From: Candidatus Rifleibacteriota bacterium
Lineage (GTDB): Bacteria > Muiribacteriota > Ozemobacteria > Ozemobacterales > Ozemobacteraceae
DNA length: 48,048 bases
Assembly: GCA_012517355.1 (NCBI GenBank)
Contig: JAAYVD010000031.1
Location: 1-48,048 of the forward strand
Direction of reading: 5' to 3'
The notes below the pieces were generated by a model that saw only the letters and a list, made by a program, of their open reading frames with translations, ran no database searches and was not told the DNA's origin. Numbering within the stretch: the first letter of the stretch is position 1; each line of letters begins with the position of its first letter. The position numbers were made by a program, and so were the translations under genes. Positions 9,813-23,639 of this stretch are shown here, one piece after another.

Positions 9813-11408
9813 TCAGCGGATCCAGACACTCGACGGGTACAGGTTCCGCAACGTCGCCCAGACCGACTGGGCCTCGATGTAGTCGCGGTTCTTCTGATAC
9901 AGTTCGGCCAGGAGCGCCAGGGCGTGGTTGACCTGGACGGGCCGGGCGGGCGGCAGGAGGGCCAGCGTGGCCAGCAGCCGGTCGATGGCCAGGTGGGGGA
10001 ACTTCTCGGCGGCGGCGAACGCGGCGAGCAGCTGCCGCTCGTTCGGAGTGGTCGGCCGGTACAGGGGGAACAGGAAATCCTTGGCCAGGCGCCGATCACG
10101 GGCCGCCATGGCGGGCAGGGCGTCCTTGTAGGCCCGCCAGGCCTCGAGGCGCCGGTCGACGGCCACCTGGTAGAAGAGGTCGACGGGGATGGTGTGGAAC
10201 TTCCAGGTCGAGGTGAACCGGCCCAGCCGCTCGCCCAGCCGGTCGGTGTTCCCGGCCAGCAGTTCGGTGAGCAGGCGCAGTTCGTTGGTGAAATCGGGGG
10301 TGATGACGGGCAACAGGTCGTTGTCGTAGGGGAACAGCGCCTTGTGTTCGTCGATCTTCCGGACCAGGGCCTGGCCTTCATCCGAGGTCAGGGGGGTGAC
10401 GGTCAGTTCGTAGAGGGCCTTCTCGAGACGGGCGATGCCCTCGAAGGAGGGGACCTCGGCCAGGCGGGCGAGGCAACGGTCGGCCTCGGTGGGGCGGTCC
10501 AGTTCGTAGCGGTTGACCAGCCACAGTTTCAGCAGCACGTTTCCGCGCAGCACCGGGTCGGCCTCGGGGAAGTCGGCCAGCAGCCTCCGGTATTTCTCCG
10601 CCCGGACGAAGGCGGGAAGGGAGTGCCAGGCGGTGCGGGTCATTCCCAGCCAGGTGACATCCTGCCCGTGGTGCCGGGGCGCCTGGGCGTCCTTCGCCTG
10701 GATCTCACCCAGAGCGGCTTCGGGAGCCTGCCTGGTGAAATACCCGGTCTCGACGGCTTCGCGAAGGTGGCGGGCCGCTCCGAACGCGTCGAGGTCGCCT
10801 TCCTGCGACTTGGCAAGGGCGGTCACCACCTGCTTGTCTTCCCGGGCCCACCTCTTGACGTTGCGGCGGGTGGTGCGGTTGGCCTGCTGGGTATGCCACT
10901 GGTCGAGGACGGCCCCGCCCGACTGATACTTCCCAACCTGGAACAGGCCGTTCATCTGGAGGGTCCGGAGCTTGTTCAGCTCCTGGCCCTTGAACAGCGG
11001 TGCCGCCGCGGTCAGGAGCTGTTCGGCCTCTTGGGTCCGGCCTTCGGCGTATTCCAGCAGGGCCTTCTGCACCATCACCTGCTTGCGGAAGCGGCCCTGG
11101 GGATACTTCTCGAGGTAGGCGTCCGCCACCACCCGCACTTCCGGGAACAGGCTGGGATGGAGGCACTTGCAGGCCAAGGCCAGGCTCAGTTCCTGCGTGT
11201 ATTTTGAGGCCTTGGGCCGGCCCAGGTCGAGGGCCTGCCGGAGGGAGGCCTCGAACAGGCGGGCCGACTCGTCGGGATGGGAAAAGGTCATCTCCACGGC
11301 CTTGCGGATGTTCCTTTCGATCTGCCCGGCGGAGGGGCCGCCCCACACGGCGGCAGGCAGAAGACCGGTGAGCAATACGATCAACAGACGGGTGGACCAC
11401 TTGTTCAT
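9813..11408 (-). CDS. Exported TPR-like/helical repeat protein
   Basis: A 531-residue protein with a signal peptide (about residues 1-23, LLIVLLTGLLPAAVWG) followed by alpha-helical repeats resembling degenerate TPRs (ESARLFEASLRQALDLG, ALLEYAEGRTQEAEQLLTAA, ALALLAELYQKNRDYIEAQS). No catalytic motif is seen. The ATG overlaps the stop of the engB gene (ATGA), so translation is coupled to that GTPase although this product is exported. It ends 50 bp before the NHL-repeat gene, probably its functional partner. Function unknown. Confidence 0.8.
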   Translation of the reverse strand: MNKWSTRLLIVLLTGLLPAAVWGGPSAGQIERNIRKAVEMTFSHPDESARLFEASLRQALDLGRPKASKYTQELSLALACKCLHPSLFPEVRVVADAYLEKYPQGRFRKQVMVQKALLEYAEGRTQEAEQLLTAAAPLFKGQELNKLRTLQMNGLFQVGKYQSGGAVLDQWHTQQANRTTRRNVKRWAREDKQVVTALAKSQEGDLDAFGAARHLREAVETGYFTRQAPEAALGEIQAKDAQAPRHHGQDVTWLGMTRTAWHSLPAFVRAEKYRRLLADFPEADPVLRGNVLLKLWLVNRYELDRPTEADRCLARLAEVPSFEGIARLEKALYELTVTPLTSDEGQALVRKIDEHKALFPYDNDLLPVITPDFTNELRLLTELLAGNTDRLGERLGRFTSTWKFHTIPVDLFYQVAVDRRLEAWRAYKDALPAMAARDRRLAKDFLFPLYRPTTPNERQLLAAFAAAEKFPHLAIDRLLATLALLPPARPVQVNHALALLAELYQKNRDYIEAQSVWATLRNLYPSSVWIR

Positions 11409-12571
11409 GACGGATTCTCTCCCTTAACTGGATTGTTCTTCTCTGGCGAGGGATTGCCTGGTGAGGACGGTGTTGAAGGGGAACCGGAATCGGGGGCCGG
11501 GGAGGCCGGGCGCGGGCCCGGGGTGCCGCCGCCGCCCTCGGGACGACGGGACGGTCGACCACCCGACGGACGCGGTCCGCCCGGTTCCTCGCCGCGCGGG
11601 CCCCCTCCCCCACCCCGGCGCCGGTTGCGACGACGCCCCTGGCCTTGCCGCTGGCCATCCGGGCCTGGCCGGCCGCCTTTCTGATCGGCGGGCCGGCCAG
11701 GGTGGACCGGGGCGGCCGGGGCCACGTCGGGGGCGCCGTCGGCCGGGGCCGGGCCGGCCCCATCGGTGGTCTTGGGTGAGGCCGCCGGGGCGGGCCGGGA
11801 ACCGGGCTGCCCCTCGGGGCGGTGCTGGCCGGGCTGGCCGGCGGGTCGGGGGGGGCGCCCTCCTTCCCGTCGGGAACCGGGCTCGCCGCCGCGCGGCCTC
11901 TTTTGGCGGGTGCGGCCTTCGCCGCCCTCGCGGGCACCGCTGCCACCCCCGCCACCCCCGCCTCCGCCTCCGCCTCCGCGCACGCGGAAGGAGCCGTCCT
12001 GGAGGAGGCCCCCGAAGGCGTCGAGCAGGTCTTCCCGGCCCTGTCGCGACTTGGCCGAGAACAGCAGGCCCTGCGACACGCCCAGGTCGTTGAGGATCTG
12101 GCGCTTCATCTTCTGGACCTGCTGCTGGGTCAGTTTGTCCACCTTGGTCATGACGACCATGGTGGGCAGGCCCCGTTCCCGGATCCACTTCTGCATCTGT
12201 TGGTCGAGGGTCGAGGGGGCATGCCGGCTGTCGAGGATCTGGACGATCCCCTTGAGTTCGGCGCACCCTTCGAAGAACTCGTCCATCATCGTCTGGATGC
12301 GCTGACGCGTGGTGCGCGAGGCCTTGGCGTAGCCGTAGCCTGGCAGGTCGACGAGGAAGAACTGGTCGTTGATGAGGTAGAAGTTGATGGTCAGGGTCTT
12401 GCCGGGGGTCGAACTGGTCTTGGCCATCTCCCGGCGCCCGACCAGCGTGTTGATCAGCGAGGACTTGCCCACGTTGCTGCGGCCGACGAGGGCGATGACC
12501 GGCAGTTTCTCCTTGGGCATGGCCTCCAGGCTGGTGACGCAGGCATGGAAGGCGGCGGCGGTGATTTTCAT
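11405..12571 (-). CDS. engB: EngB/YihA/YsxC-family ribosome-biogenesis GTPase with a long RG/PG-rich tail
   Basis: Residues 1-197 are a complete EngB GTPase: G1 GRSNVGKSS (30-38), the conserved SSTPGKT (53-59), G3 DLPGYGYAK (75-83), G4 TKVD (142-145) and G5 SAKS (171-174). EngB proteins are essential for assembly of the large ribosomal subunit. Residues 198-388 are an extra tail of about 190 residues, mostly Gly, Arg, Pro and Lys, with a poly-Gly run and repeats like RRRNRRRGGGGG. Normal family length is about 195-210 residues, so the tail nearly doubles it. Such basic RG-rich tails commonly bind RNA; that role here is inference. The gene follows lon by 16 bp, the same order seen in Bacillus (lonA-ysxC), and overlaps the next gene by 4 bp. 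Confidence 0.93.
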   Translation of the reverse strand: MKITAAAFHACVTSLEAMPKEKLPVIALVGRSNVGKSSLINTLVGRREMAKTSSTPGKTLTINFYLINDQFFLVDLPGYGYAKASRTTRQRIQTMMDEFFEGCAELKGIVQILDSRHAPSTLDQQMQKWIRERGLPTMVVMTKVDKLTQQQVQKMKRQILNDLGVSQGLLFSAKSRQGREDLLDAFGGLLQDGSFRVRGGGGGGGGGGGGSGAREGGEGRTRQKRPRGGEPGSRREGGRPPRPAGQPGQHRPEGQPGSRPAPAASPKTTDGAGPAPADGAPDVAPAAPVHPGRPADQKGGRPGPDGQRQGQGRRRNRRRGGGGGPRGEEPGGPRPSGGRPSRRPEGGGGTPGPRPASPAPDSGSPSTPSSPGNPSPEKNNPVKGENPS

Positions 12572-12587: not shown

Positions 12588-15083
12588 TCAGGATTTGGAT
12601 TTGCGGCGGGTTTTCTTGGCCCCGGCCGTGTCGAACGGGTAGTGCGGGAACCGGAGAGGGGTGGACTTGGGCTCGCCCTTCAGGGCGAGCTTGAGCACCT
12701 GTTCCCAGTTCTTCACCCGGTGGATGGTCAGTCCCTTGCGGATCTCGTCGGGGATCTCGGACAGCTCCTTCTCGTTCTCTTCCGAGACGATGATGGTCAG
12801 GATGCCGTTGCGGTGCGCCGCCAGCAGCTTCTCCTTGATGCCGCCGACGGGCAGGACCTTGCCGCGCAGGGTGATCTCGCCGGTCATGGCCACGTCGCGG
12901 CTGATGGGCACCTCGTTCAGGGCCGAGTAGATCGCGGTGGTGATGGCGATGCCGGCCGAGGGGCCGTCCTTGGGCACGCCGCCCTCGGGGAAGTGGATGT
13001 GCAGGTCGATCTTGTCGTAGTCGATCGGCCGCATGCGGAGCTGCCCGGCCCGGGCCCGCAGGTAGGACAGGCTGGCGTGGGCCGACTCCTTCATCACGTT
13101 GCCCAGCGACCCGGTCAGGATGATCTTGCCGCGGCCGGGCATGACGGCCGCCTCGATCGGCAGGATGGTGCCGCCGACTTCGGTCCAGGCCAGGCCGGTG
13201 GCCACGCCGATCTCGTCCCGCTCTTCCTTCTTGTCGCCGTGGAAGGTCGGCACCCCCAGATAGCTCTCGACCTTCTCGTCGGTCACCTTGACCGGCTCGG
13301 ACTCGAGCTTCTTCTTGAGTTCGTCTTCCGTCGAGGTCTTCGACTGGGTGACGATCTGGCGGGCGATCTTGCGGCAGATCGAGGCCAGTTCGCGCTCGAG
13401 ACTGCGGACTCCCGACTCCCGGGTGTACTCCCGGATGACCTTGCGGATGGCCGTCTCCTCGATGGCCACCTTGTACTTCTTGACCCCGTTCGACTCGAGC
13501 TGCTTGGGGATCAGGTATTTCTTGGCGATCTCGACCTTCTCGTCCTCGGTATAGCCCGGAAGGTAGACGATCTCCAGGCGGTCCTTGAGGGCGGGGGGGA
13601 TGGTGTGGGGGACGTTCGCCGTGGTCAGGAACAGCACCTTCGACAGGTCGAAGGGGGTCGAGATGTAGTGGTCGGAGAACGAGTGGTTCTGCTCGGGGTC
13701 GAGGGCTTCCAGGAGGGCGGCGCTGGGGTCGCCCCGGAAATCCATGCCCATCTTGTCGATCTCGTCGAGCAGGATGACGGGGTTCTTGGTGCCCGTGTCG
13801 CGCAGGGACTGGATGATGCGGCCCGGCATCGCCCCGATGTAGGTGCGCCGGTGCCCACGGATCTCGGCCTCGTCACGCATGCCGCCCAGCGAGATGCGGG
13901 CGAACTTGCGGTTGAGGGAACGGGCGATCGATTTGCCCAGGCTGGTCTTGCCCACGCCCGGCGGGCCGATCAGGCACAGGATGGGGCCCTTGATCGACTT
14001 CTTCAGGCGGCAGACGGCCAGGTATTCCAGGATCCGTTCCTTGACCTTCTTCAATCCGAAGTGGTCCTTTTCGAGGATTTCCTCGGACTTTTCGAGCTCG
14101 ATGCGGTCTTTCGACGACTTCGACCACGGCAGCGAGACGAGCCAGTCGATATAGTTGCGGGAAACGGTGGCTTCCGCCGATCCGGGGGGCATCTTGGTCA
14201 GCTTGTTGATCTCTTTTTCGGCCTTGGTGCGGGCTTCCTCGGGCATCTTGGCCTTGGCGATGGCCTCCTTCAGCTCCTCGATCTCCTCGCCCCGCTCTTC
14301 GCCCTCGCCCAGCTCCTTCTGGATGGCCTTCATCTGCTCGCGAAGGTAGTATTCCTTCTGGATCTGCTCCATCTGCTTGCGGACCTGGCCGCGGATCTTC
14401 TTCTCCACCATCATGATCTCGAGTTCGCGGTTCAGGATGGTGGCGATCTTCTCCAGGCGGGCCTTGGGCTCGAAGGCTTCCAGGATCTCCTGTTTCTCCT
14501 CGACCTTGAGGGTCAGGTGGGCGGTGATGATGTCGGCCAGCCGCCCGGGCTCGTCGACGTTGTTCGCCACCATGATCACCTCGAGGGGGATCTTCTTGTT
14601 GATCTTCACATACTGTTCGAACAGGCTGATGACGTTGCGCATCAGGGCCTGCATCTCGATCGTCTTCTGGTCTTCGGTGACGACTTCGGCCACCTCGACC
14701 TCGAAGTATTCGTCGCTCTTGGTGAACGACTTGATCTTCACCCGGGTGGTCCCCTCGACGAGGATCTTCAGGATGCCGTCGGGGAGTTTCAGCAGTTGCA
14801 GGATCTCGGCGATCGTGCCCGTCTCGTAGAGGTCGGCCATGGCCGGGTCGTCGGTCTTGGCCTGCTTCTGCGAGCACAGGATGATCTTGCGTTCCTTCAA
14901 CATCGCCTCCTCGATCGCCCGGATCGACTTCTTCCGGCCGACGAACAGGGGGACGACCATGTAGGGGAAGACGACCACATCCCGCAGTGGGAGCAGCGGA
15001 TGGACCATGACCCGGGCCGGGTCAGAGGGCGACTTGGAGGATGGATTGGAGGGTGGGTTGGTGCGGGATTCGTTGGTATCCAT
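12588..15083 (-). CDS. lon: ATP-dependent protease Lon
   Basis: A full-length LonA of 831 residues. It has an N-terminal substrate-recognition (LAN) domain (about 28-230, HPLLPLRDVVVFPYMVVPL), a coiled helical region, and an AAA+ domain with Walker A GPPGVGKT (373-380) and Walker B VILLDEID (about 435-442). The C-terminal Ser/Lys-dyad protease domain has PKDGPSAG with catalytic Ser709 and GGIKEKLLAA with Lys752. The Ser-Lys distance of 43 matches E. coli Lon (679/722). It degrades misfolded and regulatory proteins in the cytoplasm. AGGAAG lies 5 nt before the ATG. The first 24 residues are a Ser/Pro/Asn-rich extension, and the tail ends in a basic KKTRRKSKS segment. It leads the lon-engB run. 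Confidence 0.97.
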   Translation of the reverse strand: MDTNESRTNPPSNPSSKSPSDPARVMVHPLLPLRDVVVFPYMVVPLFVGRKKSIRAIEEAMLKERKIILCSQKQAKTDDPAMADLYETGTIAEILQLLKLPDGILKILVEGTTRVKIKSFTKSDEYFEVEVAEVVTEDQKTIEMQALMRNVISLFEQYVKINKKIPLEVIMVANNVDEPGRLADIITAHLTLKVEEKQEILEAFEPKARLEKIATILNRELEIMMVEKKIRGQVRKQMEQIQKEYYLREQMKAIQKELGEGEERGEEIEELKEAIAKAKMPEEARTKAEKEINKLTKMPPGSAEATVSRNYIDWLVSLPWSKSSKDRIELEKSEEILEKDHFGLKKVKERILEYLAVCRLKKSIKGPILCLIGPPGVGKTSLGKSIARSLNRKFARISLGGMRDEAEIRGHRRTYIGAMPGRIIQSLRDTGTKNPVILLDEIDKMGMDFRGDPSAALLEALDPEQNHSFSDHYISTPFDLSKVLFLTTANVPHTIPPALKDRLEIVYLPGYTEDEKVEIAKKYLIPKQLESNGVKKYKVAIEETAIRKVIREYTRESGVRSLERELASICRKIARQIVTQSKTSTEDELKKKLESEPVKVTDEKVESYLGVPTFHGDKKEERDEIGVATGLAWTEVGGTILPIEAAVMPGRGKIILTGSLGNVMKESAHASLSYLRARAGQLRMRPIDYDKIDLHIHFPEGGVPKDGPSAGIAITTAIYSALNEVPISRDVAMTGEITLRGKVLPVGGIKEKLLAAHRNGILTIIVSEENEKELSEIPDEIRKGLTIHRVKNWEQVLKLALKGEPKSTPLRFPHYPFDTAGAKKTRRKSKS

Positions 15084-15157: not shown

Positions 15158-17212
15158 TCAGGATGGGTGGGGGTTCTCCCCAGGTGGGGGAGGTCGGTTG
15201 TCGGATCGTTCGGGAGAGGTTGGAGTGTTGGGGTTGGGGACCCGGGAACGGCCAGAGCCGGGGAAGGGGAAACGGGCCAGTTGTGCCTCCACCCGCTGGA
15301 GCAGCCGGAGCAGGCCGGCGAGGGAGGAAGAGTGGTCGTCGAGGACCGGTGGCAGGCTGGCCAGGGCCGCCTCGATTTCGCCTTCCGCCTCGAGCAGACG
15401 GGCGAACAGGGCGGGGTGGTCACCCGGCGGGACGGCTTCCATGGCCTGAACGCGGGCATCCAGGGTCGGGAAGGTCTCGGCGGCGGCGCCCAGCTTGAGC
15501 GCCCCGATCTTCACCTGCTGGAGGCGGAACCCCAGGCGGCGGGCCAAATCGGCCATCGCCTCCGAACGGGGGGGCGGGCCTCCGGGCCAGGTCCGGAGCG
15601 CTCCGGCGATCGCCACGGGGTCGCACTCGCCTGGCCGCAGGATCCATTCCCCCTTTTCGCGGGTGATCCCTTCCTTCTGGAGCCGGCGGAACGTCAGGGC
15701 CAGCCAGGGCGTCGGGTCGAAGCCCCCGGAATCCTCGGGCAGGGAGAAGACCTTGCCCAGGTCGAGCCGGATCTGGCGGGTCCAGAGCAGGTGAAGGGCC
15801 CGTTCGGTGGCCGCCTCGCGCGCCCCGTTCCCGGACAGGGTGCGGTTCAGCAGATCGGCCAGCAGGATCAGGACGGCCCCGGGCAGCGTGGGCAGGGGGG
15901 CCTTGGGGTCGCAGGCGGGGCCGAGATCCTTCAGGATGGTGACCAGATCGGGATCCAGGCCCTGGGCTTCGGCGATCAGGGGGATCAACTGGCCCTCCAG
16001 CCCCGGGAAACAGGTCTGCAGCTGCAACGCCTTGCCGGCGGAGAAGAACATGACCCCCTTCTCGATCGTTGGTTCGGGCACCTTCCAGTCGAGAAGCCGG
16101 TTGAGGTGGGCGGCGCGCCGGGCCACCCGCAAGGCATGGTCATACAGGGAACCGATGCCGTCGGGCGCGGGCAAGGCCTTCAACTCGGTCACCCTCTCGG
16201 ACAGAGGCTTCTGCATATCGGCGGCCCACCCCTTCTGCATGCGGGCCAGCCGCTTCTGGATCTCGGTGGCCCGCACCGCCAGTTCGGCCGTTCCGGGAAC
16301 GAGGCCGGGCGCGATGCCGATGAGCAGGTCGGGAACCAGCTCCCCCTTGGCGCTTTCCAGGGGCAGGTATTCGGGTTCGAGCCCGAGCATCTCGAGCGCG
16401 AGAGGCTTGGGGACCGAGGCCAGGTCGGCTTTGATCGGCAGCAGGAAGGCCACCGGGTTTTCCAGGGTGAACGCGACACGGTCGAACAGTTCCCGGTCCT
16501 TGCGCACGGTGGCCGGCGGGGGCGACAGGGCCTGAAGCTGCGTTTCGAGCAGTTTCAGCCGGTCGGCCGGCAGGCTCTGGCCACCCCATTCCGCCACCTG
16601 TTTCGGGAAGTCCTCCGCCCGGGCCAACGGCACCTTCCGGAAGGTCAGTCCCTCCCTCCACCCGGTCTCCCGGCCGACCGTCACTCCCTCGACGGCCAAG
16701 GGGGGCAACTTGTCGTCGAGGAGCAGGCAGACATAGGCGGGGGGCTGGGGCAGGATCCCGTCGGGAAGCCAGGGCGGAGCCTTCCAGGCGGGAGCTCCGA
16801 GCAGCATCGGGATCAGGCGTGGAAGCAGGCCTGCCAGTGGGGCCCCGGGCACCAGTTTGCGGGCGAAGACATACGGCTCGCCGTCGACGTCCTTGATCAG
16901 CAGGTCTTTCACAGCCACCCCCTGAGAGGCGGCAAAACCCGCCGCGGCAGGGGTGGGAACCTTGTTGAAGTCATAGGCCTGGGCCGCCTTGGGGCCCCGG
17001 ATCTCTCCCGTCATCTCCGCCTGGGTGGCCGGAACCCCTTCCAAAAGAATGCCGAACCGCGAGGCGCTGAGCCAGATGCGGATGCGGGAAGCCCCGAGCC
17101 TCTCCTTTTCGAGCAGGTCGGCGAGGAACGGGGGGATGTCACGGGGATCACGGCCGACACTGTCGGGTGGCAGACCCCAGAAACCTGCTTCCAGCAAGAG
17201 ATTGGACGGCAA
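15158..17212 (-). CDS. Divergent glycyl-tRNA synthetase beta subunit-like protein
   Basis: A 684-residue protein that aligns by eye along the whole GlyS (glycine-tRNA ligase beta) layout. It has an N-terminal NLLLEAGFWGLPP (family LLLEIGTEELP), ASRFGILLEGVP (family ATPRRLAxLVEGL), GFAASQGVAVKDL, EPYVFARKLVPG, IGSLYDHALRVARRAAHL (family GSLYDKxERI) and a C-terminal anticodon-binding-like segment (TLDARVQAMEAV). Several signatures are eroded: GTEE is AGFWG, the HD-domain KADL is GKAL, and I cannot find the TGSxDPFALRR block. I place the start at TTG 17212, which has AGGAGG 4 nt upstream; the farther TTG at 17251 lies inside the promoter -10 box. No alpha subunit gene is in the window. It may be the only GlyS or a decayed paralogue. 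Confidence 0.65.
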   Translation of the reverse strand: MPSNLLLEAGFWGLPPDSVGRDPRDIPPFLADLLEKERLGASRIRIWLSASRFGILLEGVPATQAEMTGEIRGPKAAQAYDFNKVPTPAAAGFAASQGVAVKDLLIKDVDGEPYVFARKLVPGAPLAGLLPRLIPMLLGAPAWKAPPWLPDGILPQPPAYVCLLLDDKLPPLAVEGVTVGRETGWREGLTFRKVPLARAEDFPKQVAEWGGQSLPADRLKLLETQLQALSPPPATVRKDRELFDRVAFTLENPVAFLLPIKADLASVPKPLALEMLGLEPEYLPLESAKGELVPDLLIGIAPGLVPGTAELAVRATEIQKRLARMQKGWAADMQKPLSERVTELKALPAPDGIGSLYDHALRVARRAAHLNRLLDWKVPEPTIEKGVMFFSAGKALQLQTCFPGLEGQLIPLIAEAQGLDPDLVTILKDLGPACDPKAPLPTLPGAVLILLADLLNRTLSGNGAREAATERALHLLWTRQIRLDLGKVFSLPEDSGGFDPTPWLALTFRRLQKEGITREKGEWILRPGECDPVAIAGALRTWPGGPPPRSEAMADLARRLGFRLQQVKIGALKLGAAAETFPTLDARVQAMEAVPPGDHPALFARLLEAEGEIEAALASLPPVLDDHSSSLAGLLRLLQRVEAQLARFPFPGSGRSRVPNPNTPTSPERSDNRPPPPGENPHPS

Positions 17213-17250
17213 ACAGCCTCCTGGCCCCAGGGGGGCGGAAAGTTCGGGCA

Positions 17251-17279
17251 ATTATAGATGCAGAGGGCAAGTTTTGCAA
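17251..17279 (-). promoter_or_regulatory. Sigma70-type promoter of the GlyS-like gene
   Basis: On the minus strand TTGCAA (17274-17279), 17 bp, then a perfect TATAAT (17251-17256). Transcription would begin near 17244, giving a leader of about 30 nt that contains AGGAGG (17217-17222). This excludes the TTG at 17251 as start codon. Confidence 0.7.
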
Positions 17280-17368: not shown

Positions 17369-19804
17369 TCAGGGGTTGGCGGGGGGAATCCCGAACCTTC
17401 CGATGTCCACTGGATCGCCGCCGCCCATCCAGGGGGCCAAAACCTGCAGGAAGGTCGACCAGTCGCGGGAAGCCCTCACCAGGGGCCGGTCCCCCACCCC
17501 GTATTGGAGCCGGAAGACCTCGGTGGCCCCCTCCAGGTTGAGGAGGTTCTCGTGCGGCAGGAAGGGCCGCAGGACCCCTGCCTCGGGCGGAGGTTCCGGC
17601 CTGAGGGCCAGGAGGTGGACCGACCAGGTACCCGGGGCCAGACCTTCGGGAAGCACGAACTCACGGTGGATCGGCGGGACCAACTCCCCGGAGCCCCCTT
17701 CCCCACCCGCGGGCAGAAGGTCGCCAAGACGATGGACGTCATACCCCACGAGCACGCCGTGCCTTTCGGGGAGCAGGCCGTCGTCGCGGTGCAGGAAGGC
17801 CCCCACCACGGTATTTCGCTCCCCGGAAGCGGTGCCCACCACCTGGTATTCGTAGGAGAACACCACGGGGGCGAAGGGCCCCGCGCCTTCGATCCGCAGG
17901 CGGCCAGGGAGGGGCTGTAAAAAAGAGCCGACCGACACGACGTCGGAAGTGCCCCCTTGCCGCCAAGGATGGCGGCTCGAAACGTGAGTTTCGGGCATCG
18001 CAAGGGGGCCGGTCGATGCCAGGCCGGCTCCTCCCCCAGGGGACCCGGGAAGGTCGGCCGCCCACGCCGGTTTGCCTCCCGGCAGGTGGTTGTCGTCGAG
18101 GGGAATGACCGGCAGGGACGGGGTGGCGGGGCTGGCCGTGCCCTGGCTTCCCGTCGGCTGGCCGGCCGGGGGCACCCATAGCCGGGTCAGGAACCCGGCG
18201 GGTTCGAGCCGGAAGAACGGTCGCAGTTTTTCGCGCAGGTCAGGTGGGTAGATGAGGCTGCCGAGAACCGGGCGGCGAGCGGCTTCCTGGCGCAGGACCT
18301 CGATCTCCTCGGGGCCGACCGCGTCGATCAGCCGGAAGGTCAGATCGGGCCGGAAGGTGTGGGCCAGGCGCAAATACCACAGGGGCCGGAATTCGACATC
18401 GTTGCTGACCAGCAGGGTCGATCCGTGCGGCACCCCGGCCGTCATCCGCAGCGCCCACCGGTTAGCCTCCTGGTCGCGCGGCGACAGGCGACTGGCGCCC
18501 AACAGGACCCCGCACACCGCCACGACCGCCAGCAGTCCGGTCCCCCACCCCGGCCGCCCCCGGGTCCAGCGTGCCACACCGGCGGCGGCAAGGGTGCACA
18601 GGGCCAGGACGCTCGGCAAGAGCATGGTGTGGGCCTCGAAGGCGTTGTAATTCAGCACGAAACCCGAGTTCACCAGCAGGATCCAGGCGCCGGCCGGGAC
18701 GATACAGGGCAGGGCCCGGTCGGTCCCGTCGTTCTGAGAAACCGCTGCTGTCCGGGAACTGGGGAAAAAGGCCAGGAAGGGAAGGAGGAGGAGGGCCGGA
18801 CCCCCCTCACCCGCCATGAATCGCACCCAGTCGACGAACCGGCGGAACAGTTCGTCGGGGGGAAACACCAGCAGGGCCTTGCGAAAGTCGGCGGCGGTGA
18901 AGACCCGCCAGAACCCGTCGAACCCCTGGCCGACGAGGGGATCCATCAACACCCGGTCGGGGTTCTGCAGGCGCAGGAAGAGATCGAGCGTCGGCAGGGC
19001 TCCGAGCACGAGCCCCAGCAGCAGCCCGAACCGGGCCTCCCGCCCGAACCGGCCGGGGAGGCCCGTGTTCCAGACGGCCGGCACCGCCGCCAAAGCCAAC
19101 CCGGCAAACGTCGGGCGGTTCCCCACGCCCAGGGCGAAACACAGGCCCACAGCCAGTCCCTTCCCGGCCCCGACCGGCCCCGACCGGCAGGCCAGGCTGG
19201 CGCACAGCCATCCTGCCAGCAGCAGGATCTCGAGCGTGTAGACCTCCGCGTTGGTGGCCTGTTCCCAGAAGGTGGCGAACCCCATCATCCAGACCGCGGC
19301 CGCGCCCGCCATCACCGCTCCGAGGCCTGCCAGCCACAACCAGAGCGCGAAACAGGCCGCCCCCAGCGCGCCCAGGACGGCCGCCAGGGCGTTCACCCGC
19401 CACGCGGGCTCCCCGGCGAGCGGCACCTGGAGCGCCAGGTTCGCCAACCGCGTGAACAGCGGATACCCCGGGGGATGCGGCACGTCGAGGGTCATGGCGG
19501 CGGCGGCCAGTTCCCCCGAGTTGTACCAGGTGATCCCTGGGTTGAGGGTGGGCAGGAAGAGGGCCAGCCCGATCAGGACGACCACCAGCCAGAGGGCGAC
19601 GGCCACCCGACCGGCCTGAGGGCGGCAAGATCCTCTGGCCTCCCCGGAGGGCGGCTCGAAGTGGTCGTTGGGTGCCTCCACCGGGGGCGGTCGCCCAGGG
19701 CTTGGTGGAACCGGGGGGCCGGCGATCGGTCCCGGGCCCGGACAGGGGTCTGGGGAGTGGGGCTCGCCGGCGGCGGGGCCATCCATCGCCGGGGCCGGGG
19801 TCAA
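17369..19804 (-). CDS. DUF2723 membrane protein (GT-C-like glycosyltransferase family)
   Basis: About 811 residues. A Pro/Gly-rich cytoplasmic N-terminus (1-65) precedes about ten membrane segments (about 68-430) and a soluble C-terminal half. The first extracytoplasmic loop has the DUF2723 signature: ITWYNSGELAAAAMTLDVPHP followed by PGYPLFTRLANLAL. The acidic residue (Glu here, in SGEL) sits where GT-C enzymes such as protein O-mannosyltransferases have their catalytic acid. It probably transfers a sugar from a lipid-linked donor. The TTG start at 19804 overlaps the TGA of the upstream cNMP gene; an in-frame ATG at 19786 is the alternative. It is the last gene of the operon with the NTT-like carrier. 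The C-terminal 300 residues are unassigned. Confidence 0.8.
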   Translation of the reverse strand: MTPAPAMDGPAAGEPHSPDPCPGPGPIAGPPVPPSPGRPPPVEAPNDHFEPPSGEARGSCRPQAGRVAVALWLVVVLIGLALFLPTLNPGITWYNSGELAAAAMTLDVPHPPGYPLFTRLANLALQVPLAGEPAWRVNALAAVLGALGAACFALWLWLAGLGAVMAGAAAVWMMGFATFWEQATNAEVYTLEILLLAGWLCASLACRSGPVGAGKGLAVGLCFALGVGNRPTFAGLALAAVPAVWNTGLPGRFGREARFGLLLGLVLGALPTLDLFLRLQNPDRVLMDPLVGQGFDGFWRVFTAADFRKALLVFPPDELFRRFVDWVRFMAGEGGPALLLLPFLAFFPSSRTAAVSQNDGTDRALPCIVPAGAWILLVNSGFVLNYNAFEAHTMLLPSVLALCTLAAAGVARWTRGRPGWGTGLLAVVAVCGVLLGASRLSPRDQEANRWALRMTAGVPHGSTLLVSNDVEFRPLWYLRLAHTFRPDLTFRLIDAVGPEEIEVLRQEAARRPVLGSLIYPPDLREKLRPFFRLEPAGFLTRLWVPPAGQPTGSQGTASPATPSLPVIPLDDNHLPGGKPAWAADLPGSPGGGAGLASTGPLAMPETHVSSRHPWRQGGTSDVVSVGSFLQPLPGRLRIEGAGPFAPVVFSYEYQVVGTASGERNTVVGAFLHRDDGLLPERHGVLVGYDVHRLGDLLPAGGEGGSGELVPPIHREFVLPEGLAPGTWSVHLLALRPEPPPEAGVLRPFLPHENLLNLEGATEVFRLQYGVGDRPLVRASRDWSTFLQVLAPWMGGGDPVDIGRFGIPPANP

Positions 19805-20691
19805 CCCTTGTCCAGGAAGCTCAGCATGGCGTCGCGTTCCTGGGTATCTTCGGGAAAGTTCCGGATGGTGAATTCGGTCTGCACCTCCAGGCCACGCGTT
19901 TCGGCGAAGATGACCTGGTGCTTGTCGATGTCCTTCTTCACCCGGCGCAGGAAGGCGTCGGCGCCGGTCCGGGCCGCTTCGGCCAGCAGGACGACCACCT
20001 TGTCACGGGACAGCCGCGCCACCAGGTCGGTGGGGCGCTGGTGCAGGGTCAGGATCCGGCCGACGTCGCACATCAGCTGGTCGAGCAGGAAATCGACGGG
20101 CGGATCGGCCTCCTTGGGCTGCCCGACCGCGAGCCGCACCGACAAAAACGACAACGGCAGGGTATTCTTCTTGGCTTTCAGAAACTCGTTGGCCATGCAG
20201 TCCACGAAGTATTCCCGGGTGTAGAGCTGGGTGGCCTTGTCGATGAACTTGCCCTCGAACGAGGTCAGCTTCAGGTTCGTGGCCCGCAGACGCTGGTTGA
20301 GTTCCTTCATGATGCCGAGGGCAACGGGGGGGTATTCCGCGATCAGGTCGCAGAAATCCGTCTTGTGCAGCACCAGCACCCGCGAACTTTCCCGGGCCAT
20401 GGCCGAGGCGGCGCGTGGCTTGTCGTCGTACAGTCCCATCTCCCCGAAGAAGTCCCCTGGCTCGAAGATCGCCAGCGTCTTGGTCTTGGGCGGGGCCCCC
20501 GTGAAGATGGCCACCTTCCCCTCGACGAGCAGGTACATGCATTCGCCCAGTTCCCCTTCGTTGAACAGCACCTCGCCGGAGGCGAACTCCTCGTCGCTGA
20601 GGACCTCGGCGATCATCCGCAGTTCCTGGCTGTTGAGGCTCTGAAAGATGCTGATTTTCTTGAGGAAGAGGATCTTCTCGATGAGAATCAT
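19801..20691 (-). CDS. Cyclic-nucleotide-binding domain fused to a degenerate GGDEF-like domain
   Basis: A 296-residue cytoplasmic protein. Residues about 5-125 are a CRP/cNMP-type beta-roll, with MYLLVEGKVAIF, FEPGDFFGEMGLYDDKPRAAS (the phosphate-binding cassette, with the conserved FGE and PR-A) and VLHKTDF. The second half resembles a GGDEF domain in layout (DKATQLYTREYFVDCMANEF; DLVARLSRDKVVVLLAEA), but the GG[DE]EF signature is replaced by LSRDKV. Diguanylate cyclase activity is therefore unlikely. I chose ATG 20691 (MILIEKIL) because the longer frame would run back into the upstream carrier gene. It lies 19 bp after the NTT-like/HEAT gene; related carriers often carry such a cNMP domain at their own C-terminus, so the two may work as one unit. 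Confidence 0.8.
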   Translation of the reverse strand: MILIEKILFLKKISIFQSLNSQELRMIAEVLSDEEFASGEVLFNEGELGECMYLLVEGKVAIFTGAPPKTKTLAIFEPGDFFGEMGLYDDKPRAASAMARESSRVLVLHKTDFCDLIAEYPPVALGIMKELNQRLRATNLKLTSFEGKFIDKATQLYTREYFVDCMANEFLKAKKNTLPLSFLSVRLAVGQPKEADPPVDFLLDQLMCDVGRILTLHQRPTDLVARLSRDKVVVLLAEAARTGADAFLRRVKKDIDKHQVIFAETRGLEVQTEFTIRNFPEDTQERDAMLSFLDKG

Positions 20692-20710
20692 GGGCGAAGG
20701 GGGCTTCCTG

Positions 20711-23527
20711 TCATGGGGAGTCGGCCGTGACCGCGTTGGAGAATAGTCCGGCCCTGGCCAGTTGGTCAAGGGCCCAGCGGCAGATCTCGCCCACCGATTC
20801 GATGTGGCCCTCGCTGGCCTGGATCTTCTTGATGGCCGGGGCCAGTTCGGTCATGCCGAGGGTCCCGATCGTGTAGATGGTGGCCTCCTTCAGTTCGAGG
20901 TCGAGGCAGAGCAGGTGCCGGCCGAGGACCTGCCGTGAGGAAGGCCGCGGGAGGGAGAAGACCCGCATGCCGTACTCCCCGATCTGCTTGAGAGAGAGGC
21001 CTTCCAGAACGGGCAACAGGTGATAGATCAGCGTGCTCTCCCCCATGGTCTGCAGGATCTCGATGGCGTTGCTCATCGTCTCCTGGTTCGGGGAATAGAG
21101 GCTCTTGAACAGGGTGCGGGCGGCCTGGTTCTGGTCGGGGGCGACCAGGGCCAGGACGATCTTGGTCAGCCCCTGCACCTTCTCGCCCAGAACCATCGCC
21201 AGGAAATCGGCCTGGGCGGGGGGAAGTTCGTCGCGCACCACCCATTCGTCGATCTTCATTTCGAAGATGGCCCGGATCTTCTGGAACCCGAAACTGGTCA
21301 GCCGTTCGCGGATCTGCTGGTCCTGGGAAAGGCTCAGCAGGCGCACCGCCCCCAGTTGTCCGTGGACCGTGGCGCGCGGGTCGTCGAGCACCATCAGCAG
21401 GTCGGGGATGATCTCGACCCCGTAGCTCGAGAGGGCTTCCAGGGCCAGGCGTCGGTTGCGGGGACTGGGGTCGGACAAGGCATCGATGAGGTGCGGGATG
21501 TTCTGGGGGCTGTGGACCCGGCCGATGATGCGGATGGCCAGGGACCGGATCTCGCGAACCTCGTCCTTCAGCAGGTGTTGCAGTAGCTCGAGATGCTCCA
21601 TCACCTCCCCGGCCTGGATCATCAGGTTCATCGACCGCATGGCGGCCAGCCGCAGTTCGGGCTGGTCGCTGGAAAGGTAGGTGCGCAGGTTGACCCAGAA
21701 CCGCTCGTCGCGCGTTTCTCCCAGGCTCTGGATGCCGAGAACGATCTCTTCGGCATTCTTGCCGAAGATGAGCTTCTGCAGGATCAGCAGCGCCTTCATC
21801 ATCTGGACCAGGTCGCCTCCCCGGATCACCGCGGCGGCGGCCGCCGCCTGCTGCCGGACGTCGGGCGATTCGAGGAACTCGCCCACCCGCAACCGGATCT
21901 CCTCGTCGTGCGGGTAGCGGATCAACGTCTGGAGGGTGGCCAGCCGCACGCTCTCGTCGGGGCTGGCCAGGCACTTCAGCAAAAAGCCCTTGGTGTCGGG
22001 GCTGGGGAACAGCGACAGTTTCCGCAGCAGGATCTTCTGCAGCGAGGAACGGGCGGTGGCCGCCTGCCGCAGCAGCGCCAGGCGGGCGGTGGTGCTGCCG
22101 AACTTGATCAGCAGGTCGGCGGCCAGTTCGGCCACCTCGTCGTTCGGGTCTTTCATGGCCTCGATGACCAGCACCTGGGTCTGGGCGTCGAGGGTGCCCA
22201 GGTCCTTTTCCTCTTGGGTGAACCGCTCGATCAAGGAGCGTTTCAGCAGTTCGAGCAGGCTCTTGCTGTAGACCTCGCGCTGGCCCCAGGTCAGGGCCAT
22301 CCAGAGGGCGCAGATGAAGAGGGAAAGGGCGGAAAAGGCCCAGGGCCGGTCTTTCACGCCCATCAGGAAGGCTCCGGCCAGCACCGATCCGAGAGGGATG
22401 ACGATGCTCTCGTTGAAGGCGATGGAGCGGGCCCGCCGCTTCGAGGGGATGGCGTTGTAGAACAGGTTGCTGACCGGCTGGAACACGGCGCGGCGGAAGC
22501 CTTCCTGGTTGAAACGCGCATAGATGCCGGGGATGAGCGAATAGGAGAGGGTGGTGCCGAAGAAGGCCAGGAAGGTGGAAACCGGGTAGAACAGGTTGGC
22601 GTTGCTGACGCCGAGCCACTGGATCATCCGGACGGTGACCAGGCTCTGGAAGGCCAGGGCGACAATGTTGGACAGGATCGTGAACCGGCCGAAGAAGGAG
22701 GCCAGTTCGGCCTCGTCATGGAAATGGGCCCCGAAGATGTCGGAATACTGGTACTCGATGAAGAACCGGCTGATGGTCATGAACAGGGTGGAGCCCGCCA
22801 GCAGCAGGAGCAGCGGGGAACCGAAGACCGCCCGGGTCTCGTAGCCAAACTGTTCGAGCCAGGATTCGACGGCATACTTGGGGGCCGCCTCGCGCTCCTC
22901 GACCCCGACCGGCGAGGTGAACCGCTTGCGGCAGAACACCAAAAACCAGATCAGCGACACGGCCAGCAGCAGGATCCACACCAGGACGAGGTTGACCACC
23001 CCGAACCGGTGGGCGGTGAGGCTCAGGATCAGGCCGCCGACGATCGACCCGGCGATCGAACCAGACAGGATCAACGGAACCAGCCGCTTGGCGTCGAGCG
23101 TGGTGAACTGGTGGGCGATCAGGATCGAGAAGTGCGCCCCCAACAGGGTGGCGAGCGCACTCTGGACCACGTAGAGCAGGGGGAACCCGACCGGCAGGCC
23201 GGACGCCTCCCAGCCCTGGGCGACCAGGATCAGGCAGCCGCTCAGCGCGGCGATGGCACTTCCCACCAGCACCATCGACAGCTTGATCTTGCCGAACCGC
23301 TGCTGCAGGGAGCTGAACACCAGGCTGAGCGGGATGGACACCAGGGAGCACAGGATGAACATGTGGGGCAGGAAATCGACCCCGACCCGCTTCAGAAAGA
23401 GGGTTTCCGCCACCGATTCGCCCAGGGCGAGGCCGGTCCAGATCAGGGTGTGGAAGACCCAGAGGGCCAGCAGGTCCCCCCACTCCCCCGGCCGGACGTT
23501 GAGTAGGCGCTCCAGGCGTTCCTTCAT
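20711..23527 (-). CDS. NTT (ATP/ADP translocase-like) carrier fused to HEAT repeats
   Basis: A 938-residue fusion. Residues about 1-420 hold about 12 membrane helices with the N-terminal pattern NVRPGEWGDLLALWVFHTLI, typical of the Npt1/Npt2 ATP:ADP antiporter-like family (PF03219). Residues about 440-910 are HEAT repeats (EVAELAADLLIKFGSTTARL; NIPHLIDALSDPSPRNRRLA). Parasite NTTs exchange nucleotides, but free-living bacteria carry HEAT-fused relatives whose substrate is unknown, so I do not claim ATP transport. The start is ATG 23527 (MKERLERLL), 15 nt after a -10 box; the longer frame to 23596 would extend upstream of that box. It leads the operon with the cNMP/degenerate GGDEF protein and the DUF2723 protein. 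Confidence 0.82.
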   Translation of the reverse strand: MKERLERLLNVRPGEWGDLLALWVFHTLIWTGLALGESVAETLFLKRVGVDFLPHMFILCSLVSIPLSLVFSSLQQRFGKIKLSMVLVGSAIAALSGCLILVAQGWEASGLPVGFPLLYVVQSALATLLGAHFSILIAHQFTTLDAKRLVPLILSGSIAGSIVGGLILSLTAHRFGVVNLVLVWILLLAVSLIWFLVFCRKRFTSPVGVEEREAAPKYAVESWLEQFGYETRAVFGSPLLLLLAGSTLFMTISRFFIEYQYSDIFGAHFHDEAELASFFGRFTILSNIVALAFQSLVTVRMIQWLGVSNANLFYPVSTFLAFFGTTLSYSLIPGIYARFNQEGFRRAVFQPVSNLFYNAIPSKRRARSIAFNESIVIPLGSVLAGAFLMGVKDRPWAFSALSLFICALWMALTWGQREVYSKSLLELLKRSLIERFTQEEKDLGTLDAQTQVLVIEAMKDPNDEVAELAADLLIKFGSTTARLALLRQAATARSSLQKILLRKLSLFPSPDTKGFLLKCLASPDESVRLATLQTLIRYPHDEEIRLRVGEFLESPDVRQQAAAAAAVIRGGDLVQMMKALLILQKLIFGKNAEEIVLGIQSLGETRDERFWVNLRTYLSSDQPELRLAAMRSMNLMIQAGEVMEHLELLQHLLKDEVREIRSLAIRIIGRVHSPQNIPHLIDALSDPSPRNRRLALEALSSYGVEIIPDLLMVLDDPRATVHGQLGAVRLLSLSQDQQIRERLTSFGFQKIRAIFEMKIDEWVVRDELPPAQADFLAMVLGEKVQGLTKIVLALVAPDQNQAARTLFKSLYSPNQETMSNAIEILQTMGESTLIYHLLPVLEGLSLKQIGEYGMRVFSLPRPSSRQVLGRHLLCLDLELKEATIYTIGTLGMTELAPAIKKIQASEGHIESVGEICRWALDQLARAGLFSNAVTADSP

Positions 23528-23542
23528 GGCTCGGTGACGGTC

Positions 23543-23548
23543 ATCATA
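23543..23548 (-). promoter_or_regulatory. Probable -10 box of the NTT-like operon
   Basis: Minus strand TATGAT preceded by TACGG, in the 112-bp gap after the TamB stop. The leader would be under 10 nt. No convincing -35 box is visible. Confidence 0.4.
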
Positions 23549-23639
23549 CCGTACCCGAACGCGTTTGGCACCTGCGGATTCCCCCGCCGGGGCCATCCCG
23601 GGAATCGGGATGGGGTCGTGACGAGAGGCCTCCGGGTGG

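Follow-up and report, generated by a model that had tools for sequence, protein, structure and literature searches.

The locus and its product

The DNA analysed here (the window, 48,048 nucleotides) carries on its minus strand a gene for an orphan GlyS-like protein, named GlySL, which is followed by lon and a gene for an EngB/YsxC-type GTPase (Table 1). The host is related to Candidatus Ozemobacter sibiricus (Riflebacteria), and from reading of the sequence the start codon of glySL is the TTG at position 17212. TTG and GTG starts are common for glySL across the family (loci L084-L097), most with a Shine-Dalgarno-like box, and this frequency may reflect low translation. An antisense open frame of 696 aa (15167-17257, plus strand) lies opposite glySL and is probably a by-product of the high GC content.

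Table 1. Features of the glySL locus, in coordinates of the window.
Feature	Position	Strand	Remarks
Orphan GlyS-like protein, GlySL	15158..17212	minus	684 aa, TTG start, stop codon included
Ribosome binding site AGGAGG	17217..17222	minus	4 bases before the TTG; similar layout in relatives
B1 domain, first part, residues 1-64	17021..17212	minus	from alignment to E. coli GlyS
AGFWGLPP replacing canonical GTEELPP	17165..17188	minus	E13/E14 lost in 15/15
B2 domain, residues 65-122	16847..17020	minus	proposed tRNA-elbow domain; best-conserved part of orphans
B1 domain, second part, residues 123-212	16577..16846	minus	W148, equivalent to E. coli W150, retained; Q in place of R159
B3 domain, residues 213-335	16208..16576	minus	3/21 near-invariants kept; D329 lost
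HD domain, residues 336-515	15668..16207	minus	1/34 near-invariants kept; HD fold retained in model
SAGKAL at canonical KADL site	16025..16042	minus	K394 kept in 2/15, D396 in 0/15
Site of deleted Loop H18-19 (TGSxDPFALRR)	15803..15862	minus	R481 kept in 0/15, D476 in 1/15
Anticodon-binding-type domain (ABD), residues 516-653	15254..15667	minus	R585 in 14/15, V657 in 13/15; ArgRS anticodon domain Z 8.9
lon protease	12588..15083	minus	directly downstream of glySL; ancestral glyS neighbour
EngB/YsxC-type GTPase	11405..12571	minus	Pfam MMR_HSR1; next in ancestral glyS-lon-engB order

The initial annotation described the protein as a full-length homologue of GlyS, the beta subunit of glycyl-tRNA synthetase (GlyRS), and this was confirmed. 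The Pfam family PF02092 (GlyS) matched residues 18-470 of a longer reading of the gene at 3e-36 (126 bits, cut-off 29.2), which is about two thirds of the length; the rest of the likeness comes from alignment and predicted fold. PF02092 was also matched by all 15 aligned family members, none of which matched any other Pfam family at E≤0.01. The NCBIfam model TIGR00211 gave 116.7 bits, and since its cut-off for functional GlyS is 300, GlySL is not an equivalog of that family. Searching with the family alignment yielded 14 named loci, the majority under Riflebacteria or Ozemobacter titles and the closest being 57-58% identical to GlySL; a search of genome contigs with the single protein gave no match.

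Glycylation enzymes in the genome, family and phylum

The absence of an adjacent glyQ, already noted in the initial annotation, extends to the whole genome (7.1 Mb, 96% complete), in which a profile search found no GlyQ. No second GlyS was detected either, and of the enzymes that had been proposed for a genome search only the single-chain one was present: one alpha2 GlyRS on a different contig (474.6 bits), which is complete and shows the class II motifs in the alignment. The GlyRS of the window's family (L002; G000:C153:78758-80128) carries about 30 extra residues as an insertion, which the f5 and f7 rows displayed lack and genus g10 shares; one row of this alignment (G016) was a wrong-strand reading and was disregarded by eye.

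The survey covered 39 genomes of the phylum in eight families (f1-f8), f1 being the window's own (Riflebacteria/Ozemobacteraceae). Divergent GlyS was found in 17 of 24 f1 genomes, GlyQ in none and alpha2 GlyRS over the cut-off in 22. Families f2, f3 and f8 have true GlyS in all six genomes (498-617 bits), GlyQ in five and alpha2 GlyRS over the cut-off in none; the nine genomes of f4-f7 all have alpha2 GlyRS, with GlyS and GlyQ absent. A phylum-specific GlyQ profile, searched at E≤1 against 13 f1 genomes, gave only one match, of 34 residues and chance-like (E 0.23), and the positive control, a 14th genome, was found at 1.4e-183. On the absence of glySL, G005 (lon at the contig end) and G009, G015 and G018 (no full lon assembled) are uninformative; the informative f1 genomes are the 17 with the gene and three without it, all three belonging to genus g10.

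These data do not support the proposal in the initial annotation of a strongly divergent essential enzyme. That GlySL is a highly divergent yet active beta subunit of GlyRS is suggested by homology and fold alone, and is extremely improbable given that GlyQ is missing in 24 of 24 genomes, that an alpha2 GlyRS is present in 22 of them, that g10 lacks the gene, and that the active-site and tRNA-reading residues described below are lost.

A special tRNA-Gly tied to the orphan was also considered and rejected. The 3'-half pattern for U73 tRNA-Gly gave tRNA-like matches, judged by eye, in all genomes but G005 (67% complete), including families without GlyS, and the 12 matches listed for the A73 pattern were by eye not tRNAs. 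The discriminator therefore does not separate the groups, and tRNA-Gly is ordinary, with U73 in all families.

Gene order and descent

In 16 of the 17 f1 genomes with glySL, lon is the next gene downstream, and in the 17th the contig stops within glySL; an engB-type GTPase gene follows lon in 14 of these genomes. True glyS likewise stands directly before lon in all six genomes of the sister families (f2, f3 and f8), with glyQ directly upstream of glyS in f2 and f8 (four genomes) but not in f3 (two genomes). Because the glyS-lon order is common to both groups, glySL is the old beta subunit gene in its ancestral place. The alternative suggestion of the initial annotation, a repurposed paralogue, is thus upheld for the repurposing and rejected for the paralogy, as there is no second GlyS and the gene is by position the orthologue of glyS.

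The window's GTPase is 388 aa long, compared with 190-194 aa in f2 and f3; its Pfam match is limited to residues 26-143, and the family version continues in a long C-terminal extension that no Pfam family matches. The region upstream of glySL (17369-23596) is partly conserved and encodes a TMEM260-type O-mannosyltransferase homologue, a protein with cNMP-binding and GGDEF domains, and a HEAT/MFS protein.

GlySL distances track those of lon (Mantel r 0.87, 14 genomes, 0 of 5000 permutations as high). The GlyS tree was too weak to add to this, a grouping of the orphans with the true GlyS of the phylum being neither recovered nor rejected (AU p 0.35 and 0.24), so that the case for vertical descent is made by gene order and by the agreement with lon. 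In the lon tree, where long branches were flagged, f1 clusters with f5-f7, which are the remaining alpha2 families in it, and genus g10 falls inside f1 beside gene-bearing relatives. The three g10 genomes, in which the locus is assembled, have kept lon-engB without glySL. Their nesting among gene-bearing relatives indicates secondary loss, and the gene is therefore dispensable there.

Selection on glySL

The frames of all 15 complete aligned copies are open from end to end. Eight pairs were compared by the Nei-Gojobori method, of which G006/G007 was saturated and yielded no ratio; dN/dS was 0.06-0.13 in five closer pairs and 0.33-0.34 in two wider pairs that include the window's gene (dS > 1), values that are rough because dS was often near or above 1. 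For lon, three pairs gave 0.02-0.07. Purifying selection on glySL persists. A decaying relic without function might explain both the loss in g10 and the fast evolution of the protein, whose distance is about three times that of Lon (0.67 versus 0.23), but the full-length frames, the low ratios in close pairs and the presence of clade-specific invariant residues already disfavour this explanation, which is regarded as very improbable.

Signature residues lost and kept

Residues were mapped on an alignment of 15 orphans, a set that excludes the fragments G007 and G027, and 13 hand-chosen canonical GlyS sequences; owing to low identity, the HD and ABD parts of this alignment are uncertain. Contacts of E. 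coli GlyS were taken from PMC9908026 and PMC8464048 and domain limits from PMC8464048.

Three motif changes had been reported in the initial annotation. The replacement of GTEELP by AGFWGLPP is real, and in the alignment all 15 orphans carry F at the position of E. coli residue 12. The change of KADL to GKAL is correct as a loss but not as to its exact site, as the counterpart of E. coli KADL (K394-L397) is S-A-G-K, which lies two residues ahead of GKAL; from this alignment K394 and D396 are gone in the window's GlySL. The TGSxDPFALRR block is deleted or unrecognisable, as had been claimed. It corresponds to Loop H18-19, which in the E. coli enzyme reads the acceptor stem and U73 of tRNA-Gly (PMC9908026, PMC8464048), and the missing block is thus the tRNA-Gly-reading loop itself. 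Of the residues that serve the U73 and acceptor contacts, D476 and R482 are each kept in one of 15 orphans, and R481 and R531 in none. The outcomes that could have overturned these observations were also looked for: the motifs are not present in shifted form, and relatives of the same family share the same losses, which rules out sequencing error as their cause.

The losses extend to the other functional sites. In B3 of E. coli GlyS, R326 contacts the gamma-phosphate and D329 assists with ATP, and Q409 touches the CCA end (PMC9908026, PMC8464048); D329 and Q409 are kept in none of the 15 orphans and R326 in seven, the window's GlySL included. The tRNA-facing basic residues of B1 are largely gone (K146 kept in 3/15, R149 in 0/15), and R159 is replaced by Q in 14 and by H in one. 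For the anticodon, R585 of the E. coli protein is described as contacting C36 and a loop as holding C35 (PMC9908026, PMC8464048); this loop is changed in the orphans (F652 0/15, V655 0/15). Retained residues are W150 (15/15), R585 (14/15) and V657 (13/15). The His-Asp doublet of HD phosphohydrolases was found at the E. coli 393-394 site in none of the orphans, and PMC8464048 describes canonical GlyS as likewise lacking it.

A shift of constraint to B2

Near-invariant residues of canonical GlyS are kept by the orphans very unevenly: 4/8 in the first part of B1, 4/4 in B2, 1/7 in the second part of B1, 3/21 in B3, 1/34 in HD and 3/12 in ABD. Identity among the orphans peaks in B2 (0.56) and reaches its minimum in HD (0.24); the corresponding values in canonical GlyS are 0.30 and 0.39. 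In sliding windows, the KADL and TGSxDPFALRR blocks, which are the two best-conserved canonical blocks when the gapped C-terminal tail is left out, have entropies of 0.90 and 0.88 in canonical GlyS versus 2.23 and 2.36 in the orphans, where they are among the least conserved. B2 shows the opposite, with 0.94-1.15 in orphans versus 1.72-2.37 in canonical GlyS, and holds the orphan minimum outside the gapped tail. Constraint has moved from the tRNA-Gly-reading HD domain to B2. The net charge of the domains in the orphans is not above that of canonical GlyS, except in B3 and, partly, in ABD.

An AlphaFold2 model built on 15 sequences (mean pLDDT 86.5, pTM 0.65) predicts that all five domains, B1-B2-B3-HD-ABD, are retained. 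The best eight PDB matches to the model were all GlyRS beta or fused GlyRS chains (Z 18-25). Seven of them aligned over 521-649 residues with Z 24-25 and the eighth had Z 18.4; the three best GlyRS beta chains aligned over 647-649 residues (Z 24-25). The rmsd of 7-9 angstrom for the seven indicates that domain orientation differs from that in GlyRS beta. The HD part of the model also resembles HD hydrolases. AlphaFold may in such a case lean on remembered GlyS structures.

Proposed role of GlySL

As an evolutionary statement, it is almost certain that GlySL is a genuine orphan beta subunit, shared across the family and repurposed. The explanation judged best as a whole, with a probability of about 0.5, is that the orphan of a replaced enzyme now serves as a non-catalytic tRNA factor that binds the elbow. 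In an ancestor of the family, glycylation passed to an alpha2 GlyRS and glyQ disappeared; the leftover beta subunit retained its five-domain architecture, and the strongest constraint came to lie on B2. According to PMC8464048, deletion of B2 abolishes the complex of the E. coli enzyme with tRNA in gel filtration, and B2 is modelled there at the tRNA elbow, where its role is only indirectly demonstrated. As selection keeps the domain that the E. coli complex needs, GlySL probably grips tRNA, or a fold resembling it, without charging it. It may still grasp such a molecule at the elbow, the former anticodon-binding domain perhaps providing another point of contact, and serve as a non-catalytic cofactor, chaperone or regulator that binds tRNA. 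The chances that GlySL is a non-catalytic tRNA-binding protein appear about even, the tRNA part being deduced from residue patterns; loss of the basic tRNA-facing residues of B1 and remodelling of the C35 loop count against a tRNA grip.

The same loss in B1 would fit a role outside RNA, in which GlySL would scaffold or regulate some other process and B2 would be conserved for a protein contact. A protein-binding role is possible, and the partly conserved upstream neighbours (cNMP/GGDEF, TMEM260-type glycosyltransferase and HEAT/MFS) are not translation genes. However, the conserved pattern of B2 is the canonical one (4/4), and the lon neighbourhood is the ancestral place of the gene, so that a new link cannot be argued from its position. 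This alternative is considered unlikely.

Slightly less likely still is that GlySL has stayed in the glycylation machinery, helping the alpha2 GlyRS in trans by binding tRNA-Gly. The retention of R585 and W150 and the insertion in the family's GlyRS agree with such a helper. Against it, g10 lacks GlySL and its GlyRS is the same, insertion included; families devoid of GlyS use U73 tRNA-Gly too; and the contacts to the acceptor stem and U73 have been lost.

Relation to known systems

The nearest known protein is GlyS of the bacterial (alpha beta)2 GlyRS (PF02092; PDB 7yse, 7eiv, 8ie2 and 7lu4), with which the GlySL model shares five domains at Z 18-25; GlyS of the same phylum also shares the place before lon. 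In contrast to GlyS, GlySL has no alpha subunit, lacks Loop H18-19, D329 and Q409, and has its constraint moved to B2. B1-B2 of E. coli GlyS are reported to resemble the class I CCA-adding enzymes (PMC8464048), and the body and tail of these enzymes gave weak Foldseek matches to GlySL (about 125-146 columns, E at least 0.09, probability at most 0.92); GlySL differs from them in the Pfam result, which was confined to GlyS.

HisZ, YadB and the amino acid:carrier protein ligases resemble GlySL in being synthetase parts that work outside aminoacylation, and the synthetase-like proteins named in one review derive from catalytic synthetases (PMC9437257). GlySL differs from the HisZ/YadB type in being a non-catalytic subunit that was retained after the whole enzyme had been replaced. 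Known proteins of this kind come mostly from catalytic synthetases; here the sole survivor is the non-catalytic subunit, still in place.

In its way of working GlySL may be comparable, by analogy, to Arc1p and Trbp111. These are non-catalytic tRNA-binding cofactors whose fold is not known to be related to that of GlySL. At somewhat less than even odds, the non-catalytic subunit of a displaced essential synthetase became a new tRNA-elbow-binding factor, with complete beta architecture, which one family has kept in the former operon location. If true, this would define a class of RNA-binding protein with full beta-subunit architecture and no synthetase.

GlySL offers a natural test of what B2 does by itself, and illustrates how a component of an essential complex can become available for other use. 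It also calls for caution in annotation, as homology to GlyS by itself does not equal GlyRS. A literature search for an orphan GlyS or for the Riflebacteria/Ozemobacteraceae family found no title or opening of an abstract that describes GlySL, which is not proof of absence. A plasmid of Streptomyces sp. NBC_01727 carries a 3-kb gene named "glycine--tRNA ligase" (L184:2068-5076), whose C-terminal part matches GlyS and which apparently encodes a fused alpha-beta enzyme.
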